Shown here: positions 9,998 through 48,355 of the stretch, piece after piece | How the letters are laid out: each line of letters opens with the position of its first letter | Numbering within the stretch: the first letter of the stretch is position 1 | Source: a virus | Strand: one strand, 5' to 3' | Length of the DNA stretch: 54,400 nt | Virus record (IMG/VR): IMGVR_UViG_3300025087_000086 | Location: 1 to 54,400 of that record | Position numbers and translations under genes: made by a program | The notes under the pieces: generated by a model | The model's database searches: none | Seen by the model: the letters and a program-made list of their open reading frames with translations, nothing else | Told to the model about the DNA's origin: nothing

Positions 9998-12900
9998 ATG
10001 AATCCTTGGGAAGAAGATTGGAGTTCAGTTGCCTTAGAGGAACCAGAGGCCCAAGCTACCGCTTTGCCTTGGGAAGAGGACTGGTCTGCTTCGTCTTTGA
10101 TGAATACAGAAGAGGAAGAGAAACTTGAGAAGATTAAAGAACAGCCAGTTACTTATCAACCCCCCGCTGGCATAGAGAGTGCCTTAGCTACTGCTGAAGC
10201 CCCAATAAACAGTGAGGATAAATTTAGCCGTACAGTACTATCAAAAAACGAAGAAACTAAATTTCAACAATGGATTCACTCAACTCCCTGGTATTCTGAA
10301 TATGTGCAGAGGTATGGTGAAGAGCCAGACTTTAACACCCCTGATTATGATTATCGTGGGGCTTGGAAGTCAGGCGTAAAGCCTGAGAGAAGTGAAATAG
10401 ATGGTCAATATCATTGGGGTAGTGTCAGGCCAGATACAGGAGAATATTTAAAATCAGCTAATCATCCAACTTTTTGGAAACAAAAATTCATAGAGAAAAA
10501 TGGATACGATCCTGATAAATCTCCTATTACTCTAGAGACAAAACCCAAACCAGAGAAGAAGTTCTATAGGAAAGACGACCTCGGAGAGTACCAGCGAACA
10601 CAGGACATCGGTTCTCTAGAGTTCATGTGGGATGATATTAAGCAAGCTCCATTTGAAATCGCTAAGAATATCGGTACTATACTTAAGCTTGGGGGTAATG
10701 TCTTTAAATCTGATGAAGGTATAACGTACAGAGAACAGAGAAACAAAGAAAAACCAGGGACATTCACTGCTGCTCAGACTTATGTAGGTGGAGCAATAAC
10801 TGAAAGCATAGACAAAGTAGCATCTATAGCAGAGAAACTTGGGACTACTGCGACTGATTACTACAGGAATAAGTCAGAAGAGATTCAACAAGTTGCTGCT
10901 GTGTATCCCCATATCTGGGAGAACCCAGCTCAGCTAGTTGATCCGAAATATATTGCCAGTACTCTGATCCCAACATTCCGTGATATGGGTGTAGCCTATG
11001 CTGCTGCGTCCTTGACCGGGGGTATTGCTGCTCCTCTGGTTTTCGGTACTGTCATGGGTGCCGAGACAGCATTGCCCAACTACGAAGAGAACATTCGTAA
11101 AGGCATGGACCCAACGCTTGCTGGGCAGACTTTTGCTACTCAGTTCGTAGTGACATCTGTACTTAACTCTTCATTCGTAGCGAAATCCCTAGGACTTGGA
11201 GATGACGCATTTAAAGGAGTAGCCACTAGAAAAGGGGTCTCTGGTAATATTCTCTCTCGCTTAGAGGCTGGAGCCCATGCTGGTCTAAGGGAAATGCCAG
11301 TTGAGTACTTGGATGAGGTAACTCAGAACACTACAAATCTAGTCGCTACAAAGATGGATGAGGGAAAAGACCTCAAGACAGTAGCTCAAGAAACCAGTAA
11401 AGAATTACCAAGTATCTTTCTTAATGCACTTGATGTAATCCCCGCTGCTGGTGTATCCGCTGGTGGTATTGCTACTGCTGCATACAGACCAGGGACCAAA
11501 GATGATCCAGAAACTTCCAAGGAGAACAGGCAGACTGAAGCGGCTATAGACAAAGTATTGGAAGATGCTGGAATCCCAGGGAAACAAGAGAATTCTTACC
11601 AAGATTCAATGAGTCTCTCTGGCTCTCAGGTGTTCGGTATTACCTCAACCTACACTTCCAGTAATGTTCCGTTTGGTCTAGACTTACCAGAGACACCTAA
11701 GCCAGAACCTAAGGCATCTGGAGCAGAAGTCGCCTTCGGCCAAGTTGGGATATCACAAGGAGACCTTAGTGGTGGAGCTGCTGTGTTTACCGAGGGTGGT
11801 GGGCTTCGAGTCTCTAACCAAGGGACTGTACAAGAAGTTGCAGAAAGTGCAACTGTTAGTACACCAGCCGCCCCTGAGACTACACCAGCTACCCAAGTAT
11901 CAGAAGCATCACCAGAGACCCCAGTGGCATCTCCAGTTCCAATTGAGACTCCTGCGGCTACCCCCGTAGCTGTTCCACAGGAAACTGCTCCTAGCCCTCT
12001 TGTAGCCCCTGGAATCCCTACTCCCTCTGAGACGCCCAGTGCTTCAGAGGTCCCTAGTGTTCCAGTGTCTCCAGAGACAACTTCGGTACTCTCCCCCAAA
12101 GCCAAACCTGCTGCATCTCTCTCTGAAGAACAGAGAATAGCCCAGGAAACAGTAGCTAAGGAGTCAGAGATAGCTAAGGCGTTCATAGAAGGCGGCATAG
12201 ACTCTCTGTATGCTACAGTGGATTCACTGTATAAGCAGAGGATCTCTTCGTACAATAAGCTAGATGTAACTGGGAAGTCTCGGGTTAAGAAACCTAGTAA
12301 GCGGGGCATTTATGACGAGTTGATCCAAGAAGCAGAAGCAGAGAGGATTGCTGCTGGGTATAATGAGAACTTCAAAGTAGTGGCTGAAGAGGTTGCTGAA
12401 GAAGTGCTGGGTAACGAGGCTCCCTCTGCTGTAAAAAAAGAGAAACGAGGAAAGCTTGTCTGGTCTACTAAAGAGGACGGGGTAGACACGGCTACTGATG
12501 GTACCAGTAACTACTACATAACCAAGAACACTAAGCCCGATGGAACAAACGAGGAGGGTTACATTCTGTGGAAAGGCAAAGAGAATGTAGGCGTCTTCGG
12601 TTCCAAACGAGCAGCTAAGATGTCGTTGGTTCCAGAGACCAAGTTCGAGATCAAACGAGACACTGGGAAATCTGATTACTTTCGTGTAGTGTCTACGGCT
12701 ACTGGTCAAGCTGTTATGCCTACTGGTTTCAAGAAGAAGTGGATGGCTGAAGAGTTCTTACGGAGACTAGAAGCTGATCCCAAGATGAACAAGTCTCAAG
12801 CAGCTAAAGAGATTAGGGAACTTAAGAATAAACCGAGTACTGGGGCCAAGGTATCTGGGAAAATCCTAGTACCCAAGACAGTTAAGACTGAGCCGGTTCT

Positions 12901-15900
12901 GGATACTGAGAAAGAAGCGAAGGAAGTCGAAGCCAAGAAGCAAGCTGAGATTAGGAAACAAGAAGAGGCTAAGGCGAAGGAAGCTGGTACTAAGATATCT
13001 GAAGAAGAGAAGAAACTCATAGCTGAGCGTCATGCCTACAATACTAAGCGAGCTAAGATTCAGAAAGAAGTAGATGAACAGAAGCGTTCTCCGAAAGACC
13101 TCTTGCCGACTTGGGAAGAGTACCAGAGGAAGCTGAGTAAAGCCCAGCCCAAGCAATTAGAATTAAAAAAGAAAGAACAAGAAGAGAAGAAAGCGAATGC
13201 AGAGAGGGAAGCTAAAGCTAAGGAAAAAAAGGAGGCTCAGGCTGAAGAGAGAGCAAAGGAAGAAGAAGCTGGAGATGCTGAGAAGACTATCACTCCAGAG
13301 CAGACCAAAGAGATCAAAGAAATCCCAGAAGATAAGTTCGAGAAACCCCAGAGAGCTAAGACTAAGAGTAAGATTATCCCAGTCACCAAGGGAATCAGGA
13401 CTCGATCAGTAAAGATTATAGAGACGCTACAAAGTATTCTAGGTCTCTCCGACTGGACTATAGTAGTAGCTGATATCAACCAATTCCGAGATATGCAGAG
13501 TAACAAAGCTGCGTCAGAGGACATAGGATTTAATGAGAACCTAGATAATGATGTGATTCTATTCCTAATCAGTGAAGGGAAAGACTACGCTATAGATAAA
13601 GACCGGAGTACTAACGGTTCTATCTACTCTTTCGTAGAGAACAGGCAGCTAATCCTTTCCATAGATGAGTCCAAGTTCGCTGGTATCAAAGGATCAGTCC
13701 GGGCTATGGGTATCATTGCTCATGAACTGGGCCATGCTGTAGCAAACCGAATCCTAGCTAACATGAATGCAGTAGATCGGAATCAGATTCTTGATAAGAT
13801 GATAGACGACTACTCTGACTACTATGCAAAGACCTTTGAGAGCCACATGAGACTTGGGGAGACTTTGTTAATCTCTCGAAGTGCAGCTAGTAGAGTTCAG
13901 CTAAGAAATCATATTGAAGAGACAATACTGGGGAACACTAGTAAAGATATTCCAATAGATACAATGTCTACTCCAAGTACCAAAGCTTACGTTAGCTACC
14001 TCACCAGCTTCAACGAGTGGTTTGCTGACCAAGTAGCTAAATATGTTGAGCATGATGTAGCAGTAGTGTCTAAGTTCGACCAGTTCATGAAGGGCTTTGC
14101 GGATACAGTACTAAAGGCTATTAGTATCATCAATGAATTTGCTGGATTCGATGTAATCCCAATGTCTAAACCAGCGGAGTCAGTAGCGAATTTTATTAAG
14201 GATATCGGTTCAGTTGCATACGGTTCAGACAAGGGACAGTTTGATAAGAGCTGGAATGAGAATCGAAAGTGGTTACTCAGGCAGCAACTAGACGGAAGAC
14301 AGAGAGCAGTAAAGCTAGCTGCGACTTCTTCGTATGTGAATAGCCTCTCTGACCATAAAGCTTATGTGGATGGGGTATCAGACTATGCGAGGGGCCACAA
14401 GCCAAAGAGCGCCCAAGTACCCGATAAGGACACTGGAGTACCCACGGACCCCTTTTATGATAACGATAATGCTCTTTTAGACGATCAAGGGAATCCCCCG
14501 TTTGTGTTCCATGGTTCACCAGAGATACTGAATGGGGCCATAGATACTTCTATCGGTAACAAGATGAACTACTTAGGCGCTGGATTCAATGTGACATCTT
14601 CAGCCGAAGACGCTTCATTGAATTACAGCGGAAATGGCACTGGGATGCTTTACTCCTACATGGTCAAGATGTCAAAACCATTCTATGTGAACGATAGTGA
14701 CAATGCTATGCCAATGCTGTCCAAAGATATAGAAGCCTTTATTCAAGGGATCAAGAAAGAGTCTAAGAAGTACCCCAAGGAAGTTAGAGAACGATTTAAT
14801 GAAATCGTAGGCACTTTACAAGAATCTGCCGACATAAATGAACCAGTGGACTCCACTGATATCTGGTCAATGTTCCAAGAGAATTTAGGTCAAGACTTTG
14901 GCATTTATGTTAGAGACAACGAGGGAGACAGGACTTCCGCTGGATACATATTGAATAATGTACTCAGGGATATTGGTTATGATGGAATAGTTCTGAACGC
15001 TGGAGCCGAGATGGGCTTCTCCGCTGGAGGGGATTCTATATTTACTGCTACTGGGATGAGTGGGATTACAGAGGACACTGTACACTATCTCATGTTTAAC
15101 AGCAGTGATCTGATAGATATTACCCAAGGAGTGGACTCTGAATCCAGTCTTCCGGGAATTCCAGATAGCTCAAAAGGGTTAGCTAACGAGAACATAGTCA
15201 CTTTCTCTGGATTAGGAGGAAGCATCGAGACTTCTGCTAAAGTGAGTTTCTCTAGTGTCTCCAGAGACAACTCAGCTACTACTAAGATTCCAGGGGAGAC
15301 TAGGTTACAACGTAGGAAACGGGAGCGCCTTGAAGCTGCTGGAGGTAATGCTGGCTTAGTGTCTGCTCAGACTGGACTCATTATGGAAACCGTAGAGGAA
15401 GCTAAGGAGACTTTCGCTCAGTCCAGATCATTCTCAGCTAAGCAAAGACGGATGGCTGAGCGGGTTCTGAACAACTTAAAGGACATAGTAAAGACCAACT
15501 TAGAGTCCGCTGCTGATAGGCTTGAGCAGATATCCCCTTCTCTGATGAGAAAAGTAAATAAGTATGTGATGTATGTGAACACTAAGAATGCAGATCATAA
15601 GAAACGAGTGTCCCCGTTTATCGGATTCGTCTCGAAACAGATGACAGCAGAAGACGCTGACTTGTTTGGCCTTTATCTCAGTAACGGTAAGGAGACTGAC
15701 TGGAAACAAGTTGAGAAGATGTTCGCTAAGTACCCAGGGCTAGAGAAGCACTGGAAAGATACCGAAGCTGTTCTTATGGAAATCCGTAAGGCAGCAGAAG
15801 AAGTGGGCCTTTCCATGGAAAACCTAGTGGACAACTACTTCCCAAGGAAAGTGAATGATGTAGACGGGTTACGAAGGTATCTATACGGAGATGACTCAGT

Positions 15901-17611
15901 AGGGAAGATCAATGATGAAATCCGTAGAGCTAAGGTCTATGCAGAGAAACACAGTATCCCGTTCACAGACAAAGACGAAGCTGACATAATCAACCAGATG
16001 ATATCTACTGGGAGATACTATGGACATCTCCAGAAACCAGGGGCTCTAAAGGAGAGAAACATTCAACGAGTGAATTCTGCCATGCTCTCTCAGTTCTACT
16101 CTCACCCAATGGAAGCACTAACTGCTCATATCTACGAGATGAATGAAGCCATTGGTCAGAGGATAGTGATTGGCCATAAGCTAAGGAAAGCTAAGATGGC
16201 TGAGCTAGTGAGACAGGAGAAGAAGCTTGAGAGATCAGAAGAGGGTTCTAAGGAGCGTAAGCGGTTAATAGAGAAGGTCAAGGGATTAAGGAATTACTTG
16301 TTCGACGTAGATAACAAGAATGAACTGAATGATTCCATAAGTAACTTCATTCAGGCTGAGATATCTTCTGGATCACTTAAGGGGAAAGACGCCGATGAAG
16401 TACTGACTATCCTCCGAGCAAGGATGATGGAGAAGGGAATCTATGGGTGGACTAATACAATAAGGAACGTAGGGCTTATTTCCACTCTAGCTGATTTTAC
16501 TTCACTCATTACTCAGAGCTCTGAGGTAGTGTTCTCTATGTATCGGAACGGAATGCTGAGATCACTAGCGGCTTTGGTACAGACTAAGGAGATCACTGCT
16601 GAGATGTTTGATCTTAGGTCAGCTCAGTATGAGTGGCAGCAAGAAGGATCAGCTAAGTGGGTCTCCAAGATTCTGAAACTCACTGGGTTCTCTGCTGCTG
16701 ACATCTTCATGAAAGAGTCCGCTATGCAAGCGACCCTAGGGAAGTGGAGATCAGTAGCGAGGAAGGGAGACGCAAAGAGCCTAACGAAGTTCAGGAAACA
16801 TTGGTCTCCTTATTTTGGGGAAGACGTAGAGACTCTATTAGTAGACCTCCAGAGTAACGAGGTTACTGATACAATCAAAGAGATGGCGTGGGCTGACCTC
16901 CTCAAGTACCAGCCACTAGATGTCATAGCTAATCCTATTGGGTACATGACAGGTGGGAGAACTAGGATTTTCTGGATGCTAAAGACTTTCCAACTTAGAG
17001 CGGTCAATGCGCTGTACCGAGAGTCAGTTAGGGAGGTGCAAAAGGGCAATGTAGCTAAAGGTATTAAGAATCTCATGTATCTCACGTTCTTGATGGTCAT
17101 GGGGGGAGCTGGGAAAGATGAGCTACGGGACCTGTGGCTTGGGAGAAAAACTGGACTCTCGGATCAGTTGTCCAATAATCTTTGGAGTATCTTTCTCATG
17201 TCGAATTATGAAATCAGTAACATAGGGAAATCTGGACATGGCCCTATGTGGAGCGTAGCGTCTAAGATACTCCCCCCTGATACTATAGTAGATACTATAG
17301 TTATGGACGTTGTTAAGACTGCCCAGGGGAAACCTACTTATAACACAATCAAGCATTTCCCGGTAGTGGGCAAGGTGTTCCACTCAAGGTTCACTGAGGC
17401 TGGGAGAACCAAGGAATCCGGGAGACAGAAGAGTCAGTTCTTAGCAGAGCTTAGAGATAATGTAAGTAACCCAAGGGAATTACGAAGGATTAGGAATCAG
17501 ATACTAGAGTACAATAGAGAGCGTCTTGTCTCTGGAGACAGAGAAAACATTATATCGACCACTAGCATTTCTAGGGTCATTAACGATGAAAAGAAAAAGA
17601 GAAAGGAGTAA
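9998..17611 (+). CDS. Giant polyvalent protein: HExxH zincin plus ADP-ribosyltransferase-like domain
   Basis: This 2537-residue protein is very likely packaged and injected. The N-terminus carries the motif PWEEDWS twice (residues 3-9 and 24-30). A conserved segment follows around residues 90-165 (WYSEYVQRYGEEPDFNTPDY), then hydrophobic helices near 325-400, a Pro/Thr/Glu linker near 620-710 and a Lys/Glu coiled coil near 965-1120. HELGH at residues 1242-1246 is a zinc metallopeptidase motif. VFHGSP (His1505) and the later GYDGIVLN resemble the ADP-ribosyltransferase domain of phage polyvalent proteins. LVDNYFPRKV near residue 1945 matches a large-polyvalent-protein-associated domain. Such proteins are thought to counter host defences on entry. 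Functional claims are inferred from motifs. Confidence 0.85.
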   Translation: MNPWEEDWSSVALEEPEAQATALPWEEDWSASSLMNTEEEEKLEKIKEQPVTYQPPAGIESALATAEAPINSEDKFSRTVLSKNEETKFQQWIHSTPWYSEYVQRYGEEPDFNTPDYDYRGAWKSGVKPERSEIDGQYHWGSVRPDTGEYLKSANHPTFWKQKFIEKNGYDPDKSPITLETKPKPEKKFYRKDDLGEYQRTQDIGSLEFMWDDIKQAPFEIAKNIGTILKLGGNVFKSDEGITYREQRNKEKPGTFTAAQTYVGGAITESIDKVASIAEKLGTTATDYYRNKSEEIQQVAAVYPHIWENPAQLVDPKYIASTLIPTFRDMGVAYAAASLTGGIAAPLVFGTVMGAETALPNYEENIRKGMDPTLAGQTFATQFVVTSVLNSSFVAKSLGLGDDAFKGVATRKGVSGNILSRLEAGAHAGLREMPVEYLDEVTQNTTNLVATKMDEGKDLKTVAQETSKELPSIFLNALDVIPAAGVSAGGIATAAYRPGTKDDPETSKENRQTEAAIDKVLEDAGIPGKQENSYQDSMSLSGSQVFGITSTYTSSNVPFGLDLPETPKPEPKASGAEVAFGQVGISQGDLSGGAAVFTEGGGLRVSNQGTVQEVAESATVSTPAAPETTPATQVSEASPETPVASPVPIETPAATPVAVPQETAPSPLVAPGIPTPSETPSASEVPSVPVSPETTSVLSPKAKPAASLSEEQRIAQETVAKESEIAKAFIEGGIDSLYATVDSLYKQRISSYNKLDVTGKSRVKKPSKRGIYDELIQEAEAERIAAGYNENFKVVAEEVAEEVLGNEAPSAVKKEKRGKLVWSTKEDGVDTATDGTSNYYITKNTKPDGTNEEGYILWKGKENVGVFGSKRAAKMSLVPETKFEIKRDTGKSDYFRVVSTATGQAVMPTGFKKKWMAEEFLRRLEADPKMNKSQAAKEIRELKNKPSTGAKVSGKILVPKTVKTEPVLDTEKEAKEVEAKKQAEIRKQEEAKAKEAGTKISEEEKKLIAERHAYNTKRAKIQKEVDEQKRSPKDLLPTWEEYQRKLSKAQPKQLELKKKEQEEKKANAEREAKAKEKKEAQAEERAKEEEAGDAEKTITPEQTKEIKEIPEDKFEKPQRAKTKSKIIPVTKGIRTRSVKIIETLQSILGLSDWTIVVADINQFRDMQSNKAASEDIGFNENLDNDVILFLISEGKDYAIDKDRSTNGSIYSFVENRQLILSIDESKFAGIKGSVRAMGIIAHELGHAVANRILANMNAVDRNQILDKMIDDYSDYYAKTFESHMRLGETLLISRSAASRVQLRNHIEETILGNTSKDIPIDTMSTPSTKAYVSYLTSFNEWFADQVAKYVEHDVAVVSKFDQFMKGFADTVLKAISIINEFAGFDVIPMSKPAESVANFIKDIGSVAYGSDKGQFDKSWNENRKWLLRQQLDGRQRAVKLAATSSYVNSLSDHKAYVDGVSDYARGHKPKSAQVPDKDTGVPTDPFYDNDNALLDDQGNPPFVFHGSPEILNGAIDTSIGNKMNYLGAGFNVTSSAEDASLNYSGNGTGMLYSYMVKMSKPFYVNDSDNAMPMLSKDIEAFIQGIKKESKKYPKEVRERFNEIVGTLQESADINEPVDSTDIWSMFQENLGQDFGIYVRDNEGDRTSAGYILNNVLRDIGYDGIVLNAGAEMGFSAGGDSIFTATGMSGITEDTVHYLMFNSSDLIDITQGVDSESSLPGIPDSSKGLANENIVTFSGLGGSIETSAKVSFSSVSRDNSATTKIPGETRLQRRKRERLEAAGGNAGLVSAQTGLIMETVEEAKETFAQSRSFSAKQRRMAERVLNNLKDIVKTNLESAADRLEQISPSLMRKVNKYVMYVNTKNADHKKRVSPFIGFVSKQMTAEDADLFGLYLSNGKETDWKQVEKMFAKYPGLEKHWKDTEAVLMEIRKAAEEVGLSMENLVDNYFPRKVNDVDGLRRYLYGDDSVGKINDEIRRAKVYAEKHSIPFTDKDEADIINQMISTGRYYGHLQKPGALKERNIQRVNSAMLSQFYSHPMEALTAHIYEMNEAIGQRIVIGHKLRKAKMAELVRQEKKLERSEEGSKERKRLIEKVKGLRNYLFDVDNKNELNDSISNFIQAEISSGSLKGKDADEVLTILRARMMEKGIYGWTNTIRNVGLISTLADFTSLITQSSEVVFSMYRNGMLRSLAALVQTKEITAEMFDLRSAQYEWQQEGSAKWVSKILKLTGFSAADIFMKESAMQATLGKWRSVARKGDAKSLTKFRKHWSPYFGEDVETLLVDLQSNEVTDTIKEMAWADLLKYQPLDVIANPIGYMTGGRTRIFWMLKTFQLRAVNALYRESVREVQKGNVAKGIKNLMYLTFLMVMGGAGKDELRDLWLGRKTGLSDQLSNNLWSIFLMSNYEISNIGKSGHGPMWSVASKILPPDTIVDTIVMDVVKTAQGKPTYNTIKHFPVVGKVFHSRFTEAGRTKESGRQKSQFLAELRDNVSNPRELRRIRNQILEYNRERLVSGDRENIISTTSISRVINDEKKKRKE
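12066..12079. repeat. Palindrome, perfect
   Basis: Read as SPET in the Pro/Thr linker of the giant protein. Confidence 0.9.
15256..15269. repeat. Palindrome, perfect
   Basis: Read as VSRD in the giant protein. Confidence 0.9.
17527..17540. repeat. Palindrome, perfect
   Basis: Read as VSGD close to the C-terminus of the giant protein. Confidence 0.9.
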
Positions 17612-24676: not shown

Positions 24677-25792
24677 TCACTCCTCATTCTTAAGTAACCA
24701 TCTATTACTGATAGCTTTGAAACTAAGCTGCTGTTCGTCTCGAACTCTAATGACCACTCCTTCTGCATCTGGATTACACCCAACTACCGAGGTTCTCTCT
24801 GCTTCGGATAAGAAGTAGGCTCTCATGTACACTGGGTCTCTGTTCTGTGGTATCGCTCCAACCCAAATCTCTGGTACTGCATAGAGCCCAAGAGCTGCAC
24901 AGATACAGAGTTTCTTGTCATAGCTCAAGTACTGCTTGGTATCTATGTCCCAAATACCAAAGACGAAGAAGTGTAATTCTGAGAGCCCATACTTATTCCC
25001 CTGAACCCCTGGACCCACGATCTCCCCTTGGATAGCCAGAGATACGTTGTTCTTCTTACAGTACGCAGTGAGCCTCTCTTCGATACTATAGATGCCTGAG
25101 ACACTCCACCAAGTGCTCCAGTCTTTGCACTTCTTCCAGACATTACGGGAGCATACTCCGTATAGCCCTCGGTTAAAAAGCCCGTTCTTAAAGTCTCGGT
25201 TATAAAAGTAAGTAGTACTCTGACCGTCTAGTTTCTCAGTGCATACTATCTGCTTACCGTAGAACTGAGAGAAACTAGTTACGTTCTGTACCCGCTCTTC
25301 GTCTGTCTTTGGAAACCACTCGGGCCATGAACCAGATGCCCTGGGATAGAGGTAGCTATGAATTCTTCGGCCTACCCCGAATCTCAGTAACCACTTATGG
25401 GGCGGTGGTTTTCTGGAGTAACATTGAGTCACTGAGTCTTTGGAGCCAGGGGTTTCGTAGAGTTTCACTCCAAGAGTTTCAGTAACATCTGCTCCAAGTG
25501 CCCAAGACTCAGAAAGCCCAACTGTCTCTGGAGACAAAGCTAAGCCTTGGCTTAGTTGTCCCCTGAGCTTTATGGTCTTCACTCTGAACTTCCTGGGTCT
25601 CAGAAATTCTGACCAAGATGCCTCAGGGAGTACAGAGTCTATTTCAAAGTAAATGCATAGACTCCCTGGTACGAACTCCCCTTTCTTCACTACACACTGC
25701 CACCCATCTATACGAGCTAACTCTATGTTGTCTGCTCCGTCTATAGGGGTAATCTCCTGTATCTCTCTTACCGTTGCTAGTTTCCTGTTCAT
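24677..25792 (-). CDS. RNA ligase (Rnl5/DraRnl-like)
   Basis: The 371-residue protein has an N-terminal OB-like domain (KLATVREIQEITPIDGADNI, then WQCVVKKGEF) and a nucleotidyltransferase domain. Motif I is EKLDGQS with adenylated Lys187; IQGEIVGPG is motif III-like, EGVVIRV motif IV and LSFKAIS motif V. The layout matches Deinococcus-type RNA ligases that seal nicks in RNA, including RNA with a DNA guide. In phages such enzymes repair tRNAs cut by host anticodon nucleases, which fits the phage-encoded tRNA set. The palindrome at 25523 is read as LSPET. Confidence 0.85.
   Translation of the reverse strand: MNRKLATVREIQEITPIDGADNIELARIDGWQCVVKKGEFVPGSLCIYFEIDSVLPEASWSEFLRPRKFRVKTIKLRGQLSQGLALSPETVGLSESWALGADVTETLGVKLYETPGSKDSVTQCYSRKPPPHKWLLRFGVGRRIHSYLYPRASGSWPEWFPKTDEERVQNVTSFSQFYGKQIVCTEKLDGQSTTYFYNRDFKNGLFNRGLYGVCSRNVWKKCKDWSTWWSVSGIYSIEERLTAYCKKNNVSLAIQGEIVGPGVQGNKYGLSELHFFVFGIWDIDTKQYLSYDKKLCICAALGLYAVPEIWVGAIPQNRDPVYMRAYFLSEAERTSVVGCNPDAEGVVIRVRDEQQLSFKAISNRWLLKNEE
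25523..25536. repeat. Palindrome, perfect
   Basis: Read as SPET in RNA ligase. Confidence 0.9.
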
Positions 25793-25828: not shown

Positions 25829-25927
25829 TCACCAAACACCAGTAATGAATCTGCCTAAGACTATTCCCAGGATAATAGCGGCAGCAAGACCGTCAACAAC
25901 TGCAACACCAATTAAAAAATCTTTCAT
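25829..25927 (-). CDS. Membrane peptide, 32 residues
   Basis: A good GAGGGG site precedes ATG at 25927. The product is one hydrophobic helix with flanking charges (DFLIGVAVVDGLAAAIILGI, then VLGRFITGVW). It lies between RNA ligase and ferredoxin. It resembles other tiny phage membrane peptides and is otherwise unidentified. Confidence 0.55.
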   Translation of the reverse strand: MKDFLIGVAVVDGLAAAIILGIVLGRFITGVW

Positions 25928-25946: not shown

Positions 25947-26120
25947 TTAGTTCCCATGTATCTCTACTATAGCTTCCACTGGACAAGCATCTTTGCAACT
26001 CCCACAGCCAGCGCAGTTGTCTTGATCTATCACAGCATAGACCATAATAGTTATGGCATCCAGTGGACACACATCTAGACACTTCTCACACCCCATACAT
26101 TCAGAAGTCACTAGTATCAT
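25947..26120 (-). CDS. 2[4Fe-4S] ferredoxin downstream of RNR
   Basis: The start at 26120 overlaps the RNR stop (ATGA). The 57-residue product has two complete cluster motifs, CMGCEKCLDVCP and CAGCGSCKDACP, spaced as in clostridial-type ferredoxins. It is a small soluble low-potential electron carrier. Coupling to the RNR gene suggests that it supplies electrons to deoxynucleotide synthesis or to its activation. A longer frame to 26201 is a shadow within RNR. Confidence 0.85.
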   Translation of the reverse strand: MILVTSECMGCEKCLDVCPLDAITIMVYAVIDQDNCAGCGSCKDACPVEAIVEIHGN

Positions 26121-28051
26121 AGCACATCGCAGCTCCCCCCTGCACAGGCATACTCTTGCATACCTGTAGTGGTATCCTCTGCTTCTACGAAGGCACTCCA
26201 ATCTATTGAAGGGAACCCCTCAGTGGCTTGTTTATACTGATCCTCAGTTATCTCTTCATACGGAGCATTCTCGTAGATACTTTGGCTCTCAGCTCTGGGA
26301 AAGAACGAGAGCCCTCCAATGGAATCCCAGTGATCCCATACCCATTGAGCTATAGCGAAGTACTCATCATCACTGTAGTAAATAGTCTGGCTAGGATTAC
26401 CATCGCACCAGTGATCTCTGTAGATCAGCCATAACTCAAGCTGTTCCATGGCGCTCATATCTCGGGTAGTTACACAGTTCTCTGGAGCAGCTACATAGAA
26501 GCTGAATATGTACTTGTCTCCAGAGACAACATAGGGGACTCCCTGGTCAACTAGAAAGCCAGTGAGAGAATCCTTGCTATCTTGAGTAACTCTTCGTATG
26601 TAGTACCTAGCATAGCGCGGGTGAATCCCAGAACTGCTATTGACAAGCTGAGATACAGTACCGCTCGGCTTAATGAGAGTAAGCTGCTTGCTTGGGTTAA
26701 TACCCAGTCTACTTGACCACTCTTTATTCGTGGCATTTGCTACCTCCTTGAGTAGTGCCAATGTATCTTCTAACTCATTGTCACCAATATTATACTTTGA
26801 TTTATTTATACCAAGAATTCCCCATCCGCTTCTCCCGCTCATCACTGGATGATCCATGATACCAGTTAGTGACACCCCTAGTAACCGCTCTTCTTCTGCA
26901 TTGTCTTTCCAAACCTTACGAAGATACCTGAAGTTAGTTAGAGTGGACTGAAGCGTTCCAAGTATCGTAGCTAGTCTGACCTTTTCCTTAAGAGTTTTCA
27001 GGGTGTCCTTTGGCCTTACAATTACCTCTGTGAGATTGCACAAGCCACCGTTATCTCTAAGAATACTCTCGCCACATGGGTTTAGCAAGTAATCTCCTTT
27101 ATACTCCCTCCCACAGCTTTCAGCCTTAGCTTTCAGAGCCTCCTTATTTACTATACCTCGTTCTCCTGACTTAGAAATGTAGAGGTTCCTCCACTCTTTT
27201 GAGAATGAGTCCAAGTCAGGCTTCTCAGTATAAGCTACTGAGTTATTAGCTAGTGTCCGGTAAGGGGCGATAGAGTACCAGTCACCATTTTTTGCTCGGC
27301 GCATACGGTCATCAGTCAAATTTGAGAAACTTATTGTAGCGCTCCTTCTTACCCCTCCAGCAATGATCGCATCAGCGATTTTGCAACAGATATCATGGAC
27401 TTCCAGTGAGTTCAGTTTTCGTTTACCCTCTTTCACTGCGGTTCTAAAAGTCCTAACGGTAAAAGACATGAGAGCATTGAGAGGCTCAGGGCCACTAGCG
27501 CGGCCACCAAAGGTACGAAGTCGAGAGCCAGCAGGGCGGATAGCATCGAGGTTCCACTTAGGAATATTCCCGGAATAAAGCATAGAGATAAGTTCCTTGT
27601 ACGCTGAGGCCCAGCCAATCTTGGAATCTCTAACTTTGATGACTGTCTCACTCTCATTCAGTTCCTCCGGTAGATCAGGAAGTTGGTTGATATACTGCCT
27701 CTCGACTGAGAATCCAACTCCACACCCGCAGCTAAGGAGGTACATGATCTCATCGAAGCACCTCGGGTGGTTGATTGCTATAGCTGCACAGTTGAACCCA
27801 GATACTTCATCACGCTCTAACGCTGGCCCAGCAGTCATTAGTGCTCTCATACTGGGGGCTATGGAAAGGCTCAATATCGCTTCTTCAATCTTGTAGCTTT
27901 CATTAAGCATACTCTCATCCCAGCCAAGAGTTTGCTTATGCCAAAACTTAATATACCTCTTAACTGTCTCTTCCCAAGTCTCCCTTCGCTTCTCAGCATC
28001 GAGATAACGGGCATACTTGGAAGTATGGATGTAGCGTTGAAGGTCATTCAT
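26117..28051 (-). CDS. nrdJ: Class II ribonucleotide reductase, B12-dependent, monomeric (RTPR-like)
   Basis: The 644-residue protein shows the glycyl-free, single-subunit pattern of adenosylcobalamin-dependent ribonucleoside triphosphate reductase. FNCAAIA (Cys88) and GGLCNLTEV (Cys338) are the redox pair, NPCGES has Asn324, thiyl Cys326 and Glu328, and the C-terminus has the shuttle pair CAGGSC (Cys636, Cys641). It is shorter than the roughly 740 residues of the Lactobacillus enzyme. It converts ribonucleotides to deoxyribonucleotides for phage DNA synthesis, with no need for oxygen. It lies between small ferredoxin genes. Confidence 0.9.
   Translation of the reverse strand: MNDLQRYIHTSKYARYLDAEKRRETWEETVKRYIKFWHKQTLGWDESMLNESYKIEEAILSLSIAPSMRALMTAGPALERDEVSGFNCAAIAINHPRCFDEIMYLLSCGCGVGFSVERQYINQLPDLPEELNESETVIKVRDSKIGWASAYKELISMLYSGNIPKWNLDAIRPAGSRLRTFGGRASGPEPLNALMSFTVRTFRTAVKEGKRKLNSLEVHDICCKIADAIIAGGVRRSATISFSNLTDDRMRRAKNGDWYSIAPYRTLANNSVAYTEKPDLDSFSKEWRNLYISKSGERGIVNKEALKAKAESCGREYKGDYLLNPCGESILRDNGGLCNLTEVIVRPKDTLKTLKEKVRLATILGTLQSTLTNFRYLRKVWKDNAEEERLLGVSLTGIMDHPVMSGRSGWGILGINKSKYNIGDNELEDTLALLKEVANATNKEWSSRLGINPSKQLTLIKPSGTVSQLVNSSSGIHPRYARYYIRRVTQDSKDSLTGFLVDQGVPYVVSGDKYIFSFYVAAPENCVTTRDMSAMEQLELWLIYRDHWCDGNPSQTIYYSDDEYFAIAQWVWDHWDSIGGLSFFPRAESQSIYENAPYEEITEDQYKQATEGFPSIDWSAFVEAEDTTTGMQEYACAGGSCDVL
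26515..26528. repeat. Palindrome, perfect
   Basis: Read as VSGD in the RNR gene; symmetric one base further out. Confidence 0.9.
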
Positions 28052-28229
28052 GCTTTTCTCCCTTATACCTAGGCACTCTAATCCCGGTCAGTGTATCAAT
28101 TGCTTTGTAGAGCTGAGCTACTACCTCTTCCACTTCGACTGGATTAAATATTCCAAGGTCAGCTCTATGCGTATGGTAATGCAACTTGATATCTTTGTAT
28201 CCACCTATATCTCTGATCTCAAATTTCAT
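28044..28229 (-). CDS. Small protein upstream of RNR
   Basis: I favour ATG 28229 (GGGAG site 6 bases upstream), though an in-frame ATG at 28250 overlaps the previous stop. The 61-residue product (MKFEIRDIGGYKDIKLHYH and on) is unknown. Its stop overlaps the RNR start, so it is coupled to it. Confidence 0.6.
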   Translation of the reverse strand: MKFEIRDIGGYKDIKLHYHTHRADLGIFNPVEVEEVVAQLYKAIDTLTGIRVPRYKGEKHE

Positions 28230-28246
28230 AGACGCTCCCTGGTTCC

Positions 28247-28399
28247 TCATGATATCTGAGGCTCCAGCTTACTAATCTCTTTCTTAAACTTCTTTACACA
28301 AGCAGAACAGATACAGAGACCAGGAGTTCGTTCAATCAAGAACTCTTTGTATCTCTCTACCTCTTGCTTAGACTTACCACAGAATGCACAATGCTCCAA
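28247..28399 (-). CDS. Small ClpX-type zinc finger protein
   Basis: A TTG start at 28399 follows AAGGAG. The 50-residue product, beginning MEHCAFCGKSKQEVERYKEF, has CAFCGKS and CSACVKK, the four-Cys pattern of the ClpX zinc-binding domain, here on its own. In ClpX that domain binds adaptors and substrates. A free copy could interfere with host ClpXP or act as an adaptor; this is inference. Confidence 0.7.
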   Translation of the reverse strand: MEHCAFCGKSKQEVERYKEFLIERTPGLCICSACVKKFKKEISKLEPQIS

Positions 28400-28403
28400 G
28401 GTA

Positions 28404-28577
28404 TTACTCCTTAATCTCAATAAGATACAGTGGGCAAGCAGTTACACAGTCTCCACACTCAGTACACTTATAAGTATTGATCTTGACTCCATTATGTAGT
28501 ACCGACTTATCTATAGCCATCTCTGGGCAAGCGGCTATGCACTCACCACATTCGTTACAACCGAGCTTTATATTCAA
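28404..28577 (-). CDS. Second 2[4Fe-4S] ferredoxin
   Basis: A TTG start at 28577 is preceded by GGAGG. The 57-residue product has two complete cluster motifs, CNECGECIAACP and CTECGDCVTACP. It differs from the ferredoxin at 25947-26120, so the two are not a recent duplication. Two such carriers flanking an RNR within 2.7 kb is unusual in a phage. Confidence 0.82.
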   Translation of the reverse strand: MNIKLGCNECGECIAACPEMAIDKSVLHNGVKINTYKCTECGDCVTACPLYLIEIKE

Positions 28578-44804: not shown

Positions 44805-46448
44805 TTACCTTTTCTCCACTTCATTATCCAACCCAGACACCTTATACATTTCCATTACTGCCATCCTCTCGTTATCATCAGCAATCTTGTTGATGAATGC
44901 CAGATTAACAGCAGTGAGCATGGGGAGTTTCATCTTGGATACCATATCCAGTATAGCAATGAGACCCCTTGGAGACATAGTGAGAGCCAGTTCCCCGGAC
45001 TTATAGGCGTTCCTAATAAGCCCAGCAAACTTCACCAGCTTACGGATTACTGGTTTCCTGGTTCCCTTGAATTTCTGCTTCAGCATCTCTACTTCATCGT
45101 CTTCTTTCAAGTAGTTGAGATGAGCGTTGATACTGATCCGATCAAGCATACTCGTATCTTGAATCTGAGTAGCTGCGAACTTTTCCATAGAATCCCCAGT
45201 TCCCTTGACGTTATCAGTGAGGAACATTTGAAACTCAGGAGCAGGACGAATGATCTTATCAGCAGAGGTTCCAGGCATGTCATCTATTGTAAGGTACCCA
45301 TTTTTCTCATACAGATGCTGCATAGCCATAGCAATATGAGGGGGAATCTTGAATACTTCATCAATCGTAATCATGAAACCACCCATGAGCCCTTGGGGGA
45401 GGAGACCATACTTGAACTCCATCCCACCCTCAGATGCCCAAGGGAAGCCTAGGAACGAGGAACTCTCAAGATCACCTCTACCTCCAAGTCTCATATAAGG
45501 CTGCCTAAGATGAGCTGCAAACTGCTCTACAGCAGTGGTCTTCCCTGTCCCCGGAGGGCCAGTAATCAGCATCTTCTCTCCCAAAAGAAGGGCCACTACC
45601 ATACCTTCGAGTACCTCTGTATCCCAGAGGTAATCAGGATTAATAGCTGGAATATGCTGTCTCACTGCTTCGGGGAAGTGAGTTTCAGCATACACTGGGA
45701 CATCGTAGTCCAGCCCAGAGAGCGGGAGCTTTCCCCCCGTAATTGTGGAGAGCTTGATTACAGTCTTGGGAGCCGGAGCAGACACCTTGGCAACTCGTTT
45801 CTTAGGCGTCTTAGTTTCTGTCTCCAGAGACACTTCAGAGACCACTGGAATCTCTGGAACCAGAGTAGCAGTATTCTCTTTCTCTTTGGCTTCTCCAGAT
45901 ACCTCAATAATGAACTTGCACTTAGCAGTCAACTGAGAAGCAATGAGATTCACATGCTCCTTTGCTGCATCTTCGTCCACTTCTGCATCACTCATGTAAT
46001 CAGACACCACATCACTGAGAATATCTCGTCCAGGAGTGTGGAATTTCTCATTAGTGTCTACGCATTTCTTCAGCTCTTCCATGACAGCCCACTGAGCAGA
46101 GTTCAGAGTGATCGTCTCAGATATCACTGGAACCGTTGGAGTACCAGTAGACTCTACAGTTTTACACTTATCAAAAGGGATAAGCACCTTTTTCTCAGTT
46201 CCGTCTGTTCTACACAGATACGAGCCAGAGCTCTTTCCAACTACCTCAAAGTTGGCTCCAGTCTTGAAGCCGAAGTAATTAGTGGTCAATACTACTCTCA
46301 TAAGTTTTCCTCCGTTACCTAATGATTCCTCTGATTCTTTGGTGAACCCGTTGTTACCAAAGGCTAATTCCCTTGAATTGGTTTCCCAGTTTGCTGGGTC
46401 AAAAGCAGCATTTGGACTCATTGGATTTCTATAAACCGTGGTACTCAT
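44805..46448 (-). CDS. AAA+ ATPase, MoxR/CobS-like
   Basis: The 547-residue protein has an N-terminal half of about 250 residues with an SH3-like start and a helical segment, then an AAA+ domain: ITGPPGTGKTT (residues 297-304 hold the P-loop), MITIDEVFK (Walker B), DMPGTS and TSMLDRI. The order matches CobS and MoxR-type ATPases. In CobS it drives cobalt insertion with CobN and CobT; in MoxR systems it remodels proteins with a VWA partner. Such a partner is the next gene. Confidence 0.85.
   Translation of the reverse strand: MSTTVYRNPMSPNAAFDPANWETNSRELAFGNNGFTKESEESLGNGGKLMRVVLTTNYFGFKTGANFEVVGKSSGSYLCRTDGTEKKVLIPFDKCKTVESTGTPTVPVISETITLNSAQWAVMEELKKCVDTNEKFHTPGRDILSDVVSDYMSDAEVDEDAAKEHVNLIASQLTAKCKFIIEVSGEAKEKENTATLVPEIPVVSEVSLETETKTPKKRVAKVSAPAPKTVIKLSTITGGKLPLSGLDYDVPVYAETHFPEAVRQHIPAINPDYLWDTEVLEGMVVALLLGEKMLITGPPGTGKTTAVEQFAAHLRQPYMRLGGRGDLESSSFLGFPWASEGGMEFKYGLLPQGLMGGFMITIDEVFKIPPHIAMAMQHLYEKNGYLTIDDMPGTSADKIIRPAPEFQMFLTDNVKGTGDSMEKFAATQIQDTSMLDRISINAHLNYLKEDDEVEMLKQKFKGTRKPVIRKLVKFAGLIRNAYKSGELALTMSPRGLIAILDMVSKMKLPMLTAVNLAFINKIADDNERMAVMEMYKVSGLDNEVEKR
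45819..45832. repeat. Palindrome, perfect
   Basis: Read as SLET in the CobS-like gene. Confidence 0.9.
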
Positions 46449-48355
46449 ACCAAGAACTCCTTTAGTACGTTGAACAGCACCATATCCAAGTCTTCTGGGT
46501 CATTCACTACACAGTGGTGCTTGTAATATCGCTTCACAACGTCCGTGGTAACTCCGATACCGACTAGATCAATGGGAGTCTTTGTTTCGATATCGCTACA
46601 GACTTTCTTTAAATACCTGTCAGCATTACCACCATTCGCTCCACAGGGAGAACCATCAGAAAGGACAATAAGTAGTTTCCGATCCTCTTTGCGGTTCAGT
46701 AGCCGCTCTGCTGCATAGAGTATGGAATCTCCATCGCAGTTATAGTGCATATTAACCTGTTGAGATGACATGATATCTGCCATGGTCTCCTTTGATACTC
46801 GTTTTCCATAGGGTTTAAAAACGTAGGTGATAAGCCTACCCCTGCTAGAGAACCCAAGTATCTCGTGCTCAATTTGAAGAGCAGTGAGGGCTTCATTTAA
46901 CGCTACTACACAAGCAGATCCAATAGCGTACTTAGAGCCACTCATGGAACCAGAGCAATCCAGCAAGAGCTCTACTGCTGAGTTCTTATTGAGTCTTGAT
47001 CCATCTTTCTTCTTGAATATCCTCGGAGTTGCCCCTGGAATCTTGTTACCCGAATAGACCCTATGAACATTCTTTGAATGAATCTTCCCCTGAGTCTGCC
47101 CGTAGCTGTACGTTGAAACTGACATGGTTTGGAGATACTTAGCCACTTGTTTGGATACTGTGGAGTGACCAATAGCAGAGACAATAGCTTCCTTCTGGCC
47201 CTCATCAACTCTCTTCTCAGAGATATCAATTACATCATGCTTCGGATAAGGGATATACGGTCTGTCCCCCCCATGCTTCTCTACCTGAGTCTCTTCCATA
47301 GGAGCTGTCATTTTAGCAGCTATGGCTTTCTTGATCTTCTCCAACTGAGAAGCGGTAATCTGTTTGTCTTTCATTTCCCACTTAGCATCAATCAGTTTCT
47401 CGTTACCTTCGGCATTAGTGGGTTGTCCCCCATGCTCACCTTGGTTATGGTCAAAAGCAGAGTCTGGGGTACTGTCACACTTCTCGGAACCAGAGCCGTC
47501 TTTGTTTTGCTGCCCCTGACCTTCTCCTTGGCCCTCCTGAGGCTCTCCTTGGCCCTTTCCTTGCTTCCCTTCGCCTTCCTTGGGCTCTCCCTTGCCTTTA
47601 CCCTGATTCTCTCCTTGGCCCTTTTCCTGGCCCTGTGGAGGAGGGGGTTCATAACCAATGAGTTTAAGTAAATCAAGCACAATGCCAGCCTGTATCTCCG
47701 ACTCTTGGCCTGGGCTCTCTAGAACTGAGTCCATCCTTGTCTCCAGAGACAGCTTATCAAACGCTTCGTAGAAGTCCTTATGGATACCACGGTACTGGGT
47801 CATATCCAGAGCTTCCATTGGGTGTCCCATCCATTTTTGTCTACACTCAGCGGTATAGGCGAAGAGTGACAGGAACAGCTCATCAATGGGATCAGTAGAC
47901 GCAGTGAGCAAGGGATCAACATAAACACCCTTGCTCTTCTTCGTAAGGTCTAACTCAGCTTTTCCAGTGTGCATCAAGAACCTGCCGATACTGAATAACT
48001 GGTCTATTCTGTCGAACTTACCGAACATTGCTTTCTCACAGTACACATCCATGAGTAGGTTATTAATAAGACACACTAGCTTATCCTCGAAATTGAGATG
48101 CTTAATTAACTCAAAATAAGACCAGTGCATTTTCTCCATAACATGGGAGAGCTCATGAAAACTGAGAAACCAAAAGAACTCTTCATCGTAGCCAGAGGGA
48201 GGCGGCAAAGTAATCTCACAGTGCCTTCTCTTACTCATCGTCGCTTTTGGTTGGTTACAGTATGGCTCCCATCTTACGGAGATATTCCCACTAGTTGCCA
48301 GAGAAACCAAGAATTTCTTCTGGGCTTCACTGGTTAGTCCTATAGGAATTGCCAT
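46445..48355 (-). CDS. CobT-like VWA protein with HExxH motif
   Basis: The 636-residue protein overlaps the ATPase start (ATGA). The N-terminus has FHELSHVME (His67, His71), a zincin-type motif. A Gly/Gln/Glu/Lys repeat linker follows (residues about 240-300), then a C-terminal VWA domain with the metal site DCSGSMS (Asp466, Ser468, Ser470) and VLSDGSP. This layout matches CobT-like and DUF2201-type proteins that pair with MoxR/CobS ATPases. It could serve B12 formation or a protein-remodelling job. Confidence 0.82.
   Translation of the reverse strand: MAIPIGLTSEAQKKFLVSLATSGNISVRWEPYCNQPKATMSKRRHCEITLPPPSGYDEEFFWFLSFHELSHVMEKMHWSYFELIKHLNFEDKLVCLINNLLMDVYCEKAMFGKFDRIDQLFSIGRFLMHTGKAELDLTKKSKGVYVDPLLTASTDPIDELFLSLFAYTAECRQKWMGHPMEALDMTQYRGIHKDFYEAFDKLSLETRMDSVLESPGQESEIQAGIVLDLLKLIGYEPPPPQGQEKGQGENQGKGKGEPKEGEGKQGKGQGEPQEGQGEGQGQQNKDGSGSEKCDSTPDSAFDHNQGEHGGQPTNAEGNEKLIDAKWEMKDKQITASQLEKIKKAIAAKMTAPMEETQVEKHGGDRPYIPYPKHDVIDISEKRVDEGQKEAIVSAIGHSTVSKQVAKYLQTMSVSTYSYGQTQGKIHSKNVHRVYSGNKIPGATPRIFKKKDGSRLNKNSAVELLLDCSGSMSGSKYAIGSACVVALNEALTALQIEHEILGFSSRGRLITYVFKPYGKRVSKETMADIMSSQQVNMHYNCDGDSILYAAERLLNRKEDRKLLIVLSDGSPCGANGGNADRYLKKVCSDIETKTPIDLVGIGVTTDVVKRYYKHHCVVNDPEDLDMVLFNVLKEFLV
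47738..47751. repeat. Palindrome, perfect
   Basis: Read as SLET in the VWA gene. Confidence 0.9.

Follow-up and report, generated by a model that had tools for sequence, protein, structure and literature searches.

The window, a stretch of viral DNA of 54,400 bases (positions 1 to 54,400 of IMG/VR virus record IMGVR_UViG_3300025087_000086), encodes two distinct ferredoxins in one minus-strand gene block with a ribonucleotide reductase (RNR) predicted to belong to class II. The reading favoured here, held with somewhat better than even confidence, is that both ferredoxins serve as auxiliary low-potential carriers in an anaerobic host. They would be expressed together with genes of nucleotide metabolism, and the RNR would use a redoxin of the host. 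Because the pairing of ferredoxins and RNR was confined to a few close relatives and the RNR has kept its thioredoxin contact site, the carriers are most likely accessory and not a proven power supply of the RNR.

Gene block and the two ferredoxins

Between positions 28,577 and 25,947, the order on the minus strand was ferredoxin A, a ClpX-type zinc finger, a 68-aa protein, the RNR and ferredoxin B. The earlier note had described this order with the ferredoxins flanking the RNR. All five genes were recovered on the minus strand where it had placed them, but the word 'flank' is loose, as two genes separate ferredoxin A from the RNR. Ferredoxin A (28404..28577, minus strand, 57 aa) matched Pfam Fer4_10 (E = 3.3e-11) and begins with a TTG start with GGAGG upstream. 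The small C4 zinc-finger protein of the ClpX N-terminal-domain type (28247..28399, minus strand, about 50 aa) matched Pfam zf-C4_ClpX above cut-off (E = 1.1e-6). It is followed by the 68-aa protein (28044..28250, minus strand), which has no assigned function, and by the intein-free RNR gene for 644 aa (26117..28051, minus strand). Ferredoxin B (25947..26120, minus strand, 57 aa) matched Pfam Fer4 (E = 8.2e-15) and has an ATG start at 26120; a longer TTG-started open reading frame, listed from 26201, begins within the RNR gene. Downstream of ferredoxin B lies a putative gene for a very small membrane-type protein of about 32 aa (25829..25927, minus strand), an open reading frame with the ribosome-binding site GAGGGGAAG before its ATG at 25927. 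The next gene encodes an RNA ligase (24677..25792, minus strand; Pfam RNA_ligase, E = 2e-23; phrog_968, E = 3e-74).

The junctions within the block are tight. Zinc finger and 68-aa protein share an ATGA overlap, the 68-aa protein and the RNR overlap by 8 nt (ATGAATGA), and the RNR stop and the ATG of ferredoxin B again form an ATGA overlap. Ferredoxin B is translationally coupled to the RNR in the window. For the zinc finger, a longer open reading frame begins at 28420, and an alternative TTG start at 28399 has AAGGAG upstream. The latter, 4 nt past the ferredoxin A stop, is probably the true start because of this upstream motif and because the homologue in L013, a related IMG/VR contig, uses the same start. 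Ferredoxin A and the zinc finger therefore probably do not overlap, and the overlapping starts and stops noted previously apply to three junctions but probably not to this one. Convincing internal terminators or promoters were not found in the block, where a pattern scan gave fewer of both than shuffled sequence. The block is likely to be co-transcribed as one minus-strand operon.

Both ferredoxins exceeded the cut-offs of Pfam Fer4-type models and contained two CxxCxxCxxxCP motifs each. In ferredoxin A the cysteines are C7/C10/C13/C17 and C38/C41/C44/C48. The double pattern of ferredoxin B occurred in 0/100 shuffles of the window. As had been noted before, the two differ in sequence; their identity was about 33-36%, and they are therefore not the product of a recent duplication. 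The homologue of ferredoxin A in L005, a second related contig, was 79% identical with a dN/dS of 0.11. Homologues of ferredoxin B were 88% identical in L005 and 82% in L013, with dN/dS values of 0.12-0.13. All cysteines were kept in each of them. The eight conserved ligand cysteines and the purifying selection show that ferredoxins A and B are functional proteins. Judging from the family, each would carry two low-potential clusters. An AlphaFold2 (AF2) model of ferredoxin B was unreliable (pLDDT 41). A host assignment by ferredoxin similarity was dropped, because the most similar proteins, from Nitrospirota (53%) and Chloroflexota (48%), are longer, about 400 aa, and matched through a domain. 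Ferredoxin matches at 41-50% identity in phage records from faeces are unannotated and were left out of the comparisons.

The ferredoxins might also be decoys or competitors that bind ferredoxin-dependent enzymes of the host and divert or block electron flow, rather than productive carriers. A pair of different small ferredoxins encoded close to a ClpX-type zinc finger, among small genes that could form a host-takeover block, would suit such a function. Intact cluster ligands throughout and purifying selection are, however, expected of redox-active carriers, and the decoy function is considered quite improbable.

As a stand-alone ClpX-type N-terminal domain, the zinc finger (28247-28399, minus strand) might have host ClpX or a ClpX substrate as its partner. 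Its interpretation as a detached cysteine-rich domain of NrdJd (PMC5704485) was rejected because it matches the C4 type of ClpX and because NrdJm lacks that domain. The 68-aa protein was rejected as a redoxin, since the copy in the window has no cysteine. It had no match in Pfam or PHROG, and when its AF2 model (pLDDT 74) was compared with a viral structure library, nothing matched at E ≤ 0.001.

The ribonucleotide reductase and its reductant

The RNR matched the phage NrdJ family phrog_367 (E = 4e-158) and the RTPR structure PDB 1L1L (E = 2e-36). Phage class II RNRs are common, and 1,188 phage records matched the RNR of the window. Its active-site triad, C88, C326 and C338, aligned with cysteines of RTPR and was invariant in five relatives. 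A C-terminal CxxxxC pair, C636-AGGS-C641, lies three residues from the end, so that the cysteine relay is intact. We take C88, C326, C338, C636 and C641 to be the counterparts of RTPR C119, C408, C419, C731 and C736, residues whose roles in catalysis and relay are established. A cysteine-rich zinc domain was absent, as expected for NrdJm. By these features the RNR is classified as the monomeric NrdJm type, a predicted B12-dependent class II enzyme.

NrdJm enzymes lack the cysteine-rich domain, and the one from Lactobacillus leichmannii takes electrons from thioredoxin via its C-terminal cysteine pair (PMC5704485). The NrdJm of a Thermus virus that has no phage redoxin receives electrons from host NADPH via host thioredoxin reductase and thioredoxin (PMC6459318). 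The earlier note had called thioredoxin the usual reductant of class II RNR, which agrees with the known reductant of the NrdJm type. Nothing in the RNR of the window appears to call for a reductant other than the thioredoxin type. Genes for thioredoxin, glutaredoxin or the catalytic subunit of ferredoxin-thioredoxin reductase (FTR) were not encoded in the window, and a motif search of the window yielded no convincing redoxin. The FTR profile PF02943 had no match in the window or in nine relatives, and the host could supply this subunit.

Direct electron transfer from a ferredoxin to the RNR, replacing thioredoxin, would fit the adjacency of the genes. The RNR tail nevertheless keeps a thioredoxin-type CxxxxC pair, and a search of the literature for a precedent found none. 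Ferredoxins carry single electrons, and to our knowledge the direct reduction of a CxxxxC-type RNR tail by a ferredoxin is not known. Direct transfer is rated extremely improbable.

Retention of the ferredoxins in related viruses

The closest IMG/VR RNRs were those of L013 (93% identical apart from an N-terminal stretch) and L005 (88%), followed by L006, L007 and L008 (61-63%) and L042 (56-60%). Many of the compared contigs were fragments and most were incomplete. The ferredoxin-bearing relatives L005 and L013 come from neighbouring sample numbers. In both, homologues of the 68-aa protein (74-76% identical) and of the RNA ligase (88-91%) were present, and the end of the block was constant across the window and these two contigs. 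The remaining content was unstable. L005 carried both ferredoxins; its RNR was separated from ferredoxin A by other genes and from ferredoxin B by a single gene. The zinc finger was sought there and not found, other genes standing in its place. L013 held a zinc finger (79% identical), lacked ferredoxin A and had three genes between the RNR and ferredoxin B. One of these three, at positions 10453-10818 of L013, codes for a protein with a release-factor domain of the RF-1 (GGQ) type (Pfam, E = 5e-11). Ferredoxin B retained its place between the genes for RNR and RNA ligase in 3/3 clade members.

Outside this clade, ferredoxin genes were not found linked to RNR genes. Among 30 RNR-bearing viral contigs searched whole, a Fer4 match was obtained on two, L005 and L013 (2/20 in a smaller set). 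Relatives whose RNR was 61-63% identical showed no ferredoxin anywhere on contigs as long as 60 kb. The subset checked for thioredoxin, glutaredoxin and FTR had none of these either, which indicates that an RNR of this type functions without such proteins. At all other viral loci examined and at 80/80 loci of cellular genomes, the vicinity of the RNR held no ferredoxin motifs, leaving aside spurious cysteine-rich frames. The spacing pattern of ferredoxin B, scanned in 2.9 million viral contigs, returned 19 stretches, several of them cysteine-rich repeats; an RNR was present on 0/19 other viral contigs, a set that includes every genuine ferredoxin of this spacing found outside the clade. The spacing of ferredoxin A returned 13 stretches, which are pattern matches only. 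As whole-contig, locus and pattern searches linked ferredoxin and RNR nowhere else, the block belongs to one small clade, within which gene order is itself fluid. The earlier note would have given up a ferredoxin-driven RNR if relatives did not retain ferredoxins beside the enzyme. This is largely what was observed, with retention in the two nearest relatives only, one loss of ferredoxin A and genes inserted before ferredoxin B.

These patterns bear on an indirect route, in which electrons would pass from host oxidoreductases to a phage ferredoxin, then to a host FTR or ferredoxin-disulfide reductase, a host redoxin and finally the RNR tail. Operon linkage with the RNR, including the ATGA overlap with ferredoxin B, the retention of ferredoxin B in all three clade members and the lack of a phage redoxin are consistent with it, as is a ferredoxin-to-RNR precedent known by title for the class III enzyme of Methanosarcina barkeri. 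It is weakened by the absence of ferredoxins from every contig searched whole whose RNR is more distantly related, by the absence of ferredoxin A from L013 and by a phage that has no FTR catalytic subunit. The indirect route is judged unlikely. A link between the RNR and ferredoxin B is nonetheless conceivable, because this gene was kept in every clade member and is translationally coupled in the window.

The ferredoxins may instead reduce cob(II)alamin for adenosylation and so keep B12 usable for the RNR. Low-potential flavodoxin or ferredoxin can perform this reduction in other bacteria, the ferredoxins are co-located with a B12-dependent enzyme and the phage carries AAA+ and CobT-VWA genes. 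However, an adenosyltransferase was not found and ferredoxins were poorly retained across RNR relatives. The similarity to CobT lies in the VWA domain, which makes a role of that gene in B12 metabolism uncertain. Overall, cobalamin reduction is considered very unlikely. The genes concerned, an AAA+ gene (CobS/MoxR-like) and a CobT-VWA-like gene, are adjacent at 44805-48355 on the minus strand; they could act in B12 supply for the RNR or form a MoxR-VWA chaperone pair.

Other features of the window and its relatives were recorded. The RNR genes of L005 (8001-10886) and L013 (6786-10442) contain inteins at active-site cysteines. The intein before the first RNR cysteine starts with Pro in both and, by eye, has the Trp, Cys and Thr of class 3 inteins; it is nearly identical in L005 and L013, though the host RNR gene differs. 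A second intein of L013, with an HNH domain, precedes the NPC cysteine. The RNRs of L007, L008, L042, L044, L046, L049, L050 and L053 have large insertions near residues 109, 150-185, 350 and 468 of the window RNR, which are probably further inteins or introns. The palindrome TGTCTCYRGAGACA was found at 26 sites with at most one mismatch in the window (8299-53759), 17 of them exact (TGTCTCNNGAGACA), with 0.26 expected. Five copies were present in 17 kb of L005 and four in 12.5 kb of L013, and none was found in those of the more distant RNR relatives that were checked. The sites lie mostly inside genes, and the palindrome is reminiscent of dispersed repressor or stoperator sites, here peculiar to the clade. 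On the plus strand, positions 9998-17611 encode a 2537-aa protein, probably virion-borne, with a weak, below-cut-off match to the ADP-ribosyltransferase domain of polyvalent proteins.

Proposed role and comparison with known systems

According to the auxiliary-carrier reading, a small phage clade would have recently acquired two functional ferredoxin genes. Their shared minus-strand operon suggests expression alongside the genes of nucleotide metabolism. The ferredoxins would supplement the ferredoxin pool of the host, probably an anaerobic bacterium, and support low-potential reactions during infection, while the RNR would be reduced by a host redoxin. Both the reactions that the ferredoxins would serve and the reduction of the RNR by a host redoxin are inferred. 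A ferredoxin-using enzyme that could be an alternative partner was not found in the window, where many small genes are unannotated. Of the earlier interpretation as a whole, the presence of two distinct ferredoxins of low-potential type in the operon of a class II RNR holds, but the RNR keeps its thioredoxin-type pair and relatives do without ferredoxins. Its proposal of redirected host electron flow is close to the auxiliary-carrier reading.

If the ferredoxins are auxiliary carriers only, one more phage group joins the few with bacterial 4Fe-4S ferredoxins, in this case with two copies, and the genes mark an anaerobic infection strategy. It is doubtful that the clade has built a ferredoxin-powered class II RNR route that would supply dNTP synthesis from an anaerobic host's ferredoxin pool in place of NADPH, with either cobalamin reduction or a host ferredoxin-disulfide reductase plus redoxin as the connecting step. 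Should the ferredoxins feed the RNR, a virus could couple DNA precursor synthesis to the host ferredoxin pool; such coupling has so far been indicated for the class III enzyme of an archaeon.

That enzyme belongs to Methanosarcina barkeri, in which, going by the title of a report (Wei et al. 2015, a reference in PMC9176816), electrons reportedly pass from a ferredoxin disulfide reductase to a class III RNR. The path resembles the proposed phage route in ending at an RNR, but it involves an archaeal enzyme with a dedicated disulfide reductase, and no such gene was found in the phage. A ferredoxin of a Prochlorococcus phage (Campbell et al. 2020, PMC7397100, cited in PMC9973337) is phage-encoded like those of the window, and it was reportedly studied as a donor of electrons to host enzymes. 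It differs in being a plant-type 2Fe-2S protein that serves the sulfite reductase of cyanobacteria and has no relationship to the 2[4Fe-4S] ferredoxins of bacteria. We know of no ferredoxin operon for the RTPR of L. leichmannii. This enzyme (PDB 1L1L) shares with the RNR of the window its fold, the cysteines of the active site and a relay through a C-terminal CxxxxC pair, and differs from it in being bacterial and 739 aa long. The Thermus virus NrdJm (PMC6459318) is likewise a phage-borne B12-dependent RNR of the same subclass with a C-terminal cysteine pair and no phage redoxin. Unlike in the window, ferredoxins were not reported alongside it, and its reduction by host thioredoxin and thioredoxin reductase was demonstrated in vitro. 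In Lake Baikal, viruses of Nitrospirota carry a 4Fe-S ferredoxin that was read as an auxiliary metabolic gene (PMC7678222). Theirs is a single phage-encoded ferredoxin, 86% identical to that of the host and with RNR linkage unmentioned, whereas the window holds two divergent copies around NrdJm. Phage 4Fe-4S ferredoxins are thus already known, and the new element is the divergent 2[4Fe-4S] pair around an NrdJm RNR.
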